From Hyalangium ruber (lineage in GTDB: Bacteria > Myxococcota > Myxococcia > Myxococcales > Myxococcaceae): a stretch of 64,000 bases of DNA. Made by a program: the position numbers and the translations under genes. Positions 55,324 through 57,041 of the stretch are shown here, one piece after another (the stretch's first letter is position 1; each line of letters starts with the position of its first letter). The notes beneath the pieces are model-generated. The model searched no databases and had not been told where the DNA came from. It worked only from the letters and a program-made list of their open reading frames with translations. The DNA lies in contig NZ_JAXIVS010000005.1 of the NCBI RefSeq assembly GCF_034259325.1, positions 1 to 64,000 of the forward strand. Direction: 5' to 3'.

Positions 55324-55385
55324 AGGCCGCCCCACCCCGAAACGTGGAGCCGGGCGCTCGCCTCCCGGGCCCCCCTTGACACTCC

Positions 55386-55436
55386 ATCCGCTATAACGGA
55401 TATATAGCTACATCCGTTTTGACGGACGTCTGTCCG
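55386..55436. promoter_or_regulatory. Tandem operators upstream of the XRE-cupin operon
   Basis: ATCCG-N6-CGGAT (55386-55401) is followed 26 bases on by ATCCG-N6-CGGAC (55412-55427). The latter's right half also makes CGGAC-GTCT-GTCCG (55423-55436). These lie in an AT-rich stretch (ATATATAGCTA) just before the small gene at 55453. They are good candidates for binding by the XRE-cupin protein itself. Confidence 0.55.
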
Positions 55437-55452: not shown

Positions 55453-55584
55453 ATGAACGCCGCCGTCATCGACCTGCAAGACTTCCGCAAGAAGCGCGAG
55501 GCCGAGCAGTGTCAGATGACGCGAGCCACCCCCGCTCGGCCGTGGATGCCGGTATGGGTGTGGGTGGTAGTCTGGCCGGTATGA
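55453..55584 (+). CDS. 43-residue small protein or leader peptide
   Basis: Starts MNAAVIDLQDFRKKREAEQ, a natural helical beginning with AGAGGTT upstream; the tail becomes Trp/Val-rich (WMPVWVWVVVWPV). Its stop TGA overlaps the ATG of the XRE-cupin gene as ATGA, which suggests coupled translation. It is either a short leader gene or the 5' end of a formerly longer gene whose reading frame was cut short. Confidence 0.5.
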   Translation: MNAAVIDLQDFRKKREAEQCQMTRATPARPWMPVWVWVVVWPV

Positions 55585-56348
55585 AGTCGGTACGGGAGAA
55601 CAGCGGACGCAAAGGCCGAAGCGGTCCACCACGCCGCAAGAGTGCCGGGCCCGAGGCCTCGGCACCCGCGGACGTGTCCCCCGAGTCTTCTTCCGAGGAG
55701 CTCCTCTCGACGCGATCCCCCGCCATGCCTCCCGCCCCTGGCGACGAGGCGTGGGCGTACGAGGTGGCACACCCAGATGCCGACCAGGACATGGCACCCG
55801 TGGTGGGCCGCAACCTGAGGAGGCTGCGCATGCAGCGCGGCCTGTCGCTCGAGCGGCTGTCCAAGGCCTCGGGCGTAAGCCGGGCGATGCTCGGGCAGAT
55901 CGAGCTGGGCCAGAGCGCGCCCACCATCAACGTGCTGTGGAAGATCGCCCGGGCGCTGGACCTGCCGTTCTCGGCGCTGATCAGCAACACGGGTGGCACG
56001 GGCACGCGGCTGATGCGCGCGCAGCAAGCCAAGCGGCTCACCTCGCATGACGGGCGTTTCGCCTCCCGGGCGCTCTTCCCGTTCGACGAGCCGCGGCGGG
56101 TGGAGTTCTACGAGCTGACCTTGAGGACCCAGAGCGAGGAGCGGGCCGACGCCCACCCTCCTGGCACGCTGGAGAACCTGATCGTCACCCGGGGCACGCT
56201 GGAGATGGAGATTGGCGCCGAGCGCCACGTGCTTGCCCCGGGGGACGCCATCCTCTTCGAGGCGGACAAGCCCCACGTCTACCGGAACGTGGGGCAGGAC
56301 GATCTCACCATGTACCTGGTGATGACGTACGCCGAAGAGGTGGGCTGA
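55581..56348 (+). CDS. XRE-family regulator with C-terminal cupin domain
   Basis: A 255-residue protein: a Ser/Pro/Ala-rich N-terminal extension (about 1-70), a Cro/C1-type HTH (NLRRLRMQRGLSLERLSKAS, SRAMLGQIELGQSAPTINVLWK; partly quoted) and a cupin (about 170-250; HPPGTLENLIVTRGTLEMEI, APGDAILFEADKPHVYRN). This is the well-known architecture of regulators that sense a small ligand or metal through the cupin. Tandem inverted repeats upstream suggest autoregulation. It is convergent with the methionine-rich gene, one base between the stops. Confidence 0.9.
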   Translation: MKSVRENSGRKGRSGPPRRKSAGPEASAPADVSPESSSEELLSTRSPAMPPAPGDEAWAYEVAHPDADQDMAPVVGRNLRRLRMQRGLSLERLSKASGVSRAMLGQIELGQSAPTINVLWKIARALDLPFSALISNTGGTGTRLMRAQQAKRLTSHDGRFASRALFPFDEPRRVEFYELTLRTQSEERADAHPPGTLENLIVTRGTLEMEIGAERHVLAPGDAILFEADKPHVYRNVGQDDLTMYLVMTYAEEVG

Positions 56349-56349
56349 G

Positions 56350-56814
56350 CTACTTCGACATGCACATCATCATGGGCATGCCGTTGCACATCATCATCAT
56401 CGGCGCGCCCATGGCCATCATGCTGGTCATGGCGTCGCAGCACTCCTTCATCATCGCCATGTCCTGACCTTCCATCGGCATCATCTTGCACATCATGCCG
56501 TCCTTGGTCATCTCGCAGGTCATGCGGCACATCATCGGCGCCATCTGACGCATCATCATCGGCATCTGCATCATCATCGGCATGCCGCCCATCATGTTCA
56601 TGGGCATCATCCCGCCCATCATCATGGGGTTCATGCCGCCCATCATGTTCATGGGCATCATCCCGCCCATCATCGGGTTCATGCCCATCATGTTCATGGG
56701 CATCATCCCGCCCATCATGTTCATGGGCATCATCCCGCCCATCATCGGATTCATGCCCATCATCGGCATGTTCTGGTTGGGCATGTTCATGGGCATGGCG
56801 TTCGCGGTCATCAT
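56350..56814 (-). CDS. Methionine-rich (about 47% Met) small protein
   Basis: A 154-residue protein with 72 methionines by my count, plus seven cysteines in the C-terminal third. Residues about 17-75 are repeats of GGMMPMNMMGG; later come MMCRMTCEM, MMCKMMPMEG, KECCDAM and MMMCMSK. It is a real gene: GGGAGGAG lies eight bases before ATG 56814, and the repeat sequence is kept in frame with no stops. It has no signal peptide. Met/Cys-rich proteins can bind copper(I) or silver or soak up oxidants; which applies here is unknown. An aquaporin gene lies upstream on the same strand. Confidence 0.75.
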   Translation of the reverse strand: MMTANAMPMNMPNQNMPMMGMNPMMGGMMPMNMMGGMMPMNMMGMNPMMGGMMPMNMMGGMNPMMMGGMMPMNMMGGMPMMMQMPMMMRQMAPMMCRMTCEMTKDGMMCKMMPMEGQDMAMMKECCDAMTSMMAMGAPMMMMCNGMPMMMCMSK

Positions 56815-57041
56815 TTGTGGGCTCCTCCCGGCATCGCCGGAGTGAAGAAAGCGTCCCAGGGATAGAGCACCCGCACCGATACTTCGATTGAACCGTGGGG
56901 CATTGCTTCGCTTTCCTCCAAGGCAGCGGAGGCACTCCCCTTCGGAGCGGAGGATTGGCTGGCTGGGACGGATACCCGTCTGCTGGCGCGGACGGAGGCG
57001 TCACGCGGTGGACGGACGCCTCCTGTCACGAACCCAGCACT

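Follow-up and report, generated by a model that had tools for sequence, protein, structure and literature searches.

The 64,000-nucleotide stretch of Hyalangium ruber DNA analysed here (the window; positions 1 to 64,000 of contig NZ_JAXIVS010000005.1) contains a small gene for a protein rich in methionine. This Met-rich gene is accompanied by a gene for an XRE-cupin transcription regulator and by a small open reading frame (ORF). The predicted link of the Met-rich gene to sulfur genes through this regulator is well supported by sequence, and storage of sulfur would be a plausible role of its product. The coding features are as follows:

56350–56814, minus strand: gene of the Met-rich protein; 154 amino acids with 72 Met and 7 Cys, free of Trp, Phe, Tyr, Leu, Ile, Val and His
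56822–56829, minus strand: strong ribosome-binding site GGGAGGAG, just upstream of the Met-rich ORF
56560–56814, minus strand: N-terminal part with GGMMPMNMMGG-type repeats; its length varies between relatives
56353–56559, minus strand: conserved C-terminal domain (~55 residues), MTCEMxKDGMMCKMMP...CC...MGxPMMMMCNGMPMMM
55581–56348, plus strand: XRE-cupin transcription regulator, tail-to-tail with the Met-rich gene; its start was set at the ATGA overlap with the small ORF
55453–55584, plus strand: small ORF of 43 amino acids (MNAAVIDLQDFRKKR...PWMPVWVWVVVWPV), directly ahead of the regulator, whose start its stop overlaps

Translation yields 72 Met (47%), 18 Gly, 16 Pro, 12 Asn, 7 Ala and 7 Cys. 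Sulfur-bearing residues thus make up 79 of the 154 positions (51%), which is the composition expected of a sulfur reserve protein. All seven Cys residues are located within the final 60 residues. The methionine content, the repeats, the seven cysteines in the C-terminal third and the strong ribosome-binding site had been stated in the original prediction, which was made from the sequence alone, and are confirmed. That prediction named stops or frameshifts in relatives as the finding that would speak against the gene; the reading frame is kept open across genera, and the matches contain no stops. Despite differing repeat lengths, the Met content of the relatives is 35–50%, and Trp, Phe, Tyr, Leu, Ile and Val add up to only 0–7 residues per protein. 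In the C-terminal domain, 37% of the pairwise codon differences are synonymous, compared to 13% expected for random single changes, and the frame is therefore under purifying selection. Coding in another frame is ruled out by the conservation, the frame-keeping indels and the codon substitution pattern; an Asp/His-rich frame on the same strand and other overlapping ORFs were rejected as shadows of the ATG-rich sequence. On the strength of these comparisons, the Met-rich ORF is a real gene. Its annotated start is probably correct, because its N-terminus, MMxAxxMPM, recurs in the Pseudomonas and Magnetospirillum proteins. No hydrophobic segment indicative of a signal peptide is visible in the N-terminus MMTANAMPMNMPNQNMPM, as judged without a predictor, and the N-terminus is similar in other classes; the cytosolic location proposed originally probably holds.

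The repeat unit of the N-terminal part resembles GMNPMMGGMMPMNMM. At L025, a locus of a strain other than Sorangium So0157-2, a run of some 20 near-identical MMPQMMG repeats is found. The C-terminal domain, and with it the Met-rich family, matches no model in Pfam or NCBIfam. AlphaFold modelled the domain as beta-beta-alpha-beta-beta with low confidence (pLDDT 60–70); with a deeper alignment the confidence dropped and the topology remained unchanged. A fold search with this low-confidence model gave nothing convincing (best Foldseek E-value 1.5, best VIA-align Z-score 2.7). The conserved cysteine motifs of the domain are C-x8-C, CC and C-N/G-G. Together with the Met clusters they are plausible ligands of soft metals, and the two-domain forms from Pseudomonas carry 15 Cys and about 70 Met. 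The protein could accordingly be a metal buffer that binds Cu(I), Ag(I) or Hg(II) in the cytosol, with the Cys-bearing domain providing tight sites and the repeats extra capacity. We regard this as unlikely. Several of the conserved Cys residues are replaced by Met in relatives, the window protein lacks His, and sites consisting only of Met are generally weak compared to cytosolic thiols. Two further arguments, the gene neighbourhood and the predicted regulon, are given below.

The spread of the family was determined by searching sampled genomes with a profile of the C-terminal domain. The gene is present once in the H. ruber genome, in 28 of 96 Myxococcaceae genomes, in 30 of 195 sampled genomes of the phylum, in 39 of 199 sampled Pseudomonas genomes (about one fifth), and in two of 385 sampled genomes of the class to which Magnetospirillum belongs. 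The Pseudomonas proteins always contain the domain as two tandem copies. The carriers are soil bacteria from scattered lineages. A scan of genome contigs yielded 46 loci, including Sorangium, Anaeromyxobacter, Labilithrix, Magnetospirillum, Telmatospirillum and Tianweitania. Sorangium cellulosum So0157-2 possesses two paralogues about 0.9 Mb apart, the second of which is L105. A search of plasmids with low-complexity filtering switched on gave no match, and no description of the protein was found in the open-licence literature searched.

For an analysis of the neighbourhood, the ORFs around 47 loci were all clustered, up to a distance of about 6 kb. The only neighbour common across genera is the XRE-cupin unit. 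In agreement with the regulator noted originally, a regulator gene is nearby in 43 of the 47 loci, which represent three classes, and it is oriented tail-to-tail with the Met-rich gene in 41. The exceptions are L045, where the regulator lies upstream, L049, where it is 3.2 kb away, and four loci with no regulator nearby, in one of which the sequence stops shortly behind the gene. At the corresponding place in most other loci, relatives of the small ORF were found (about 43–68 amino acids, with VID(L/F)..R..R in the N-terminal part); there is no family model for them. In Myxococcota and Alphaproteobacteria, their tail is rich in Trp, Pro and Val (MPVWVWVVVW). Judged by position, the small ORF is predicted to be cotranscribed with the regulator. 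Among 92 sampled Myxococcaceae, with the regulator called at an E-value of 1e-30 or better, 43 possess the regulator, and all sampled carriers of the Met-rich gene are among them. The 49 genomes without the regulator all lack the Met-rich gene. The regulator therefore occurs more widely than the Met-rich gene.

The aquaporin gene of the window, which had been put forward as a possible peroxide channel, is not conserved in related loci, and this argument falls. In an oxidant sink, HOCl or peroxide would convert Met to the sulfoxide, and methionine sulfoxide reductases (Msr) would regenerate Met, as proposed for the periplasmic protein MrpX. The high Met content and the use of Met in place of all other large hydrophobic residues would suit such a function. 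We nevertheless consider it very unlikely, since the protein is cytosolic by sequence, neither an Msr gene nor an oxidant regulator recurs in the 6-kb neighbourhoods, and predicted sulfur operators were found instead. Likewise, no copper or silver gene recurs beside the Met-rich gene. The copper(I)/silver store and the oxidant sink of the original prediction are chemically possible and lack genomic support; the predicted sites of the conserved regulator mark genes of cysteine and methionine metabolism, which speaks against a metal buffer as well.

The regulator consists of an N-terminal HTH_3 domain (Pfam E-value 2e-15) and a C-terminal Cupin_2 domain (8e-12), and thus fits the definition of XRE-cupin proteins. 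Its closest relative in the PDB is 1Y9Q from Vibrio cholerae (E-value 9e-25), the cupin domain of which holds D-methionine (PMC7901475). In four related Myxococcaceae genomes (L179, L180, L181, L182), a homologous XRE-cupin protein (51–54% identical) is fused to a rhodanese domain. The fused gene directly follows the cysteine desulfurase that is the cargo of a family 2A encapsulin, and the shell gene is located ahead where the contig reaches that far. Cysteine desulfurase cargo of encapsulins is cited as serving sulfur storage (PMC12407261). Homologues of the regulator are therefore associated with sulfur, and one such association is with a sulfur store. In another group of Myxococcaceae (L168, L170, L178), an XRE-cupin homologue that is 66–69% identical adjoins genes which, judged by eye, resemble those of isocitrate lyase and malate synthase. 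It follows that the regulator family may have switched targets in this group.

The promoter shared by the small ORF and the regulator bears the palindrome TCCGYTATARCGGA and contains these features:

55376–55381, plus strand: -35 box TTGACA of the regulator promoter
55386–55401, unstranded: predicted operator ATCCGCTATAACGGAT, just downstream of the -35 box
55412–55427, unstranded: second predicted operator ATCCGTTTTGACGGAC in the same promoter

The two predicted sites recur in relatives. A palindromic operator at the regulator's own promoter is a feature of XRE-cupin regulators and suggests self-control. The next best copies of the palindrome in the H. ruber genome precede cysH-cysG-cobA-cysD-cysN, metNIQ, cysE-cysK and a porin gene (gene identities were assigned by means of NCBIfam and Pfam). 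As judged by eye, the cysH and metNIQ promoters read TTGAC(A/G)-N16/17-TATAAC, and the palindrome covers the -10 box; this geometry suggests repression. In 13 other genomes, the palindrome with at most one mismatch occurs at 21 sites, compared to one for a reversed control pattern. Genomes that possess the regulator account for twenty of these sites: three belong to the regulator, seven to sulfur genes (metK, two sbp for sulfate transport, two cysK, metNIQ, one ssuA-like), four to homologues of the porin, three to one Sorangium region with ABC permeases and one to another porin-like gene; two are unassigned. One sbp site is accompanied by cysT, and the other lies beside a sulfite/nitrite reductase gene. 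In four sampled genomes without the regulator, three had no site and one had a single imperfect site. Predicted sites upstream of sulfur assimilation genes, as expected of a regulator that works like SutR, are therefore present in H. ruber and in its relatives. The window regulator is the likely owner of this operator, because it is the only close copy in its genome. In several genera a Porin_O_P porin follows a sulfur operator (L113:2608-3948, L139, L142, L143); its role may be to let sulfate or sulfonates pass the outer membrane.

Similar sites were detected upstream of the Met-rich gene:

56860–56865, minus strand: putative -10 box CTATCC; 58 bp separate its first base from the operator centre, a distance also seen in relatives
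56917–56930, minus strand: proximal operator-like palindrome TCCG-N6-TGGA, followed by GGAAA
56979–56992, minus strand: distal operator-like palindrome TCCG-N6-CAGA, 62 bp upstream of the proximal one

The pattern common to Met-rich genes is TCCG-N6-(C/T)GGA followed by GGAAA, with a second copy 61–62 bp further upstream in several genera. An exact TCCGN6CGGA is present at 13 of 36 loci (mean of 0.5 and maximum of 4 in shuffled sequences), and TCCGN6YGGAGGA at 20 of them (shuffle maximum 1). As these counts come from related loci and were made after the pattern had been noticed, the comparison overstates the certainty. With -10 boxes chosen by eye before the spacing was measured, the distance from the operator centre to the putative -10 box is 58–59 bp for loci of the Hyalangium-like and Pyxidicoccus-like groups, of Sorangium and of MAGs; for an Archangium-like group it is 48 bp. 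This spacing holds while the distance from operator to ATG varies from 73 to 144. The sites would thus be located near -60 or -70, one helical turn apart, which is the geometry of upstream activators. It is plausible to assume that the Met-rich gene is activated from them.

In Pseudomonas, the promoters of the Met-rich genes share a near-invariant CTTG...CTAGAATCG (CTTG...TAGAAT). In L017-L055, 200–270 bp upstream of the gene, the blocks TTAGA...TATT and ATATCCAT are conserved; the sequence between the promoter and these blocks is divergent.

The sequences themselves show the family and its conservation, the pairing with the regulator, and palindromes in three settings: the regulator promoter, sulfur genes and the region upstream of the Met-rich gene. 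We infer from them that this regulator binds the palindromes, the sign of its action, its ligand, and storage itself. The explanation that we favour, and to which we give an even chance, is that the Met-rich protein is a cytosolic reserve of sulfur in the form of Met and Cys under methionine-responsive XRE-cupin control. When methionine or sulfur is plentiful, the regulator would bind its sites and repress sulfur uptake, cysteine synthesis and methionine uptake. It would simultaneously activate the Met-rich gene from the sites about 60–70 bp upstream of the transcription start. The repeats would constitute the reserve of sulfur residues, and the C-terminal domain would serve in folding, in assembly or as a tag for later breakdown, by which Met and Cys would be returned. 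The chances are somewhat less than even for the more specific version, namely a store in which Met replaces all other large hydrophobic residues, which is switched on by a methionine-sensing regulator while assimilation is shut off, and which has spread as a cassette of small ORF, regulator and Met-rich protein between Myxococcota, Pseudomonas and Alphaproteobacteria.

Several observations weigh against a sulfur reserve under such control. Methionine is costly to make. The C-terminal domain is more conserved than a pure reserve would need, and the protein may therefore do more than hold residues, for example by assembly, as a handle for breakdown or by metal binding. In G116 and G118 the Met-rich gene and the regulator are unlinked, on different contigs. 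The TATA core of the other operators is missing from the sites ahead of the Met-rich gene, and the -10 boxes were, as stated, selected by eye. Several relatives of the regulator without a Met-rich neighbour adjoin glyoxylate-shunt or other genes. G007 possesses both the regulator and the Met-rich gene, yet no site within one mismatch of TCCGTTATAACGGA. A search of Pseudomonas genomes yielded little beyond the regulator's own site and no sulfur regulon, and a shared Pseudomonas operator was rejected, as the profile of the regulator promoters performed no better than shuffles on the Met-rich promoters except at few loci. The sulfur-regulon model is therefore best supported in Myxococcota, since Pseudomonas keeps the gene pairing without a shared operator or sulfur regulon being found. 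As a further explanation, the low-complexity part might assemble into a condensate that senses the supply of methionine or the redox state and feeds back on growth or on the regulator, instead of being a bulk store. Such a gauge would be compatible with the methionine-linked control, with the presence of a small conserved ORF in the operon of the regulator, and with Gly/Pro/Asn/Met repeats that adjoin a conserved domain. We judge it quite improbable, because the repeats are poorly conserved in length and order, and assembly or signalling is without direct support.

The Met-rich family combines an extreme composition with a testable predicted regulon and is undescribed in Pfam and NCBIfam. Its C-terminal domain would allow one to ask, in a natural protein, if folding is possible with Met as the sole large hydrophobic residue. 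Even if the storage role should be wrong, the papers searched do not describe the sulfur regulon predicted for this XRE-cupin regulator in Myxococcota.

Reserves of carbon, nitrogen, phosphorus and iron are known from bacteria; to our knowledge, no dedicated bacterial protein stores sulfur as amino acids. Plant 2S albumins and delta-zein are sulfur-rich seed storage proteins that serve as a Met and Cys reserve. They differ from the Met-rich protein in that they are unrelated in sequence, eukaryotic, secreted and far lower in Met. The family 2A encapsulin with its cysteine desulfurase is a cited bacterial sulfur store, and in relatives its operon carries the XRE-cupin-rhodanese homologue. In contrast to the Met-rich protein, to which it is not related in sequence, it holds sulfur in a protein shell and not in residues. 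MrpX, reportedly described by Melnyk et al. in 2015 (cited in PMC7464077) as a periplasmic Met-rich peptide tied to hypochlorite and an Msr, is likewise a small bacterial protein with a very high Met content. The Met-rich protein differs by lacking a visible signal peptide and, within 6 kb, the recurrent Msr gene and oxidant regulator of an MrpX-type system, and by its Cys-bearing domain and sulfur-linked control. Bacterial soft-metal binders that are rich in Cys or Met include the copper storage protein Csp, a helical bundle lined with Cys, and the periplasmic SilE and PcoE, whose metal ligands are His and Met. Neither type was found for the Met-rich protein by Pfam, NCBIfam or the fold search with the low-confidence model. 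For comparison with the four-helix bundle of Csp, the C-terminal domain is predicted as beta-beta-alpha-beta-beta with low confidence, and the absence of His and of a visible signal peptide distinguishes the protein from SilE and PcoE. According to the title of the paper on it, which is cited in PMC8464067, SutR (YdcN) from E. coli is a sulfur-utilisation regulator. Like the window regulator, SutR, the P. aeruginosa members and V. cholerae 1Y9Q combine HTH_3 and Cupin_2 domains; a palindrome as operator and predicted self-control are further shared traits. For the P. aeruginosa members, a role as local specialised repressors is described in PMC7901475, whereas the window regulator is predicted to govern several sulfur operons together with the Met-rich gene.
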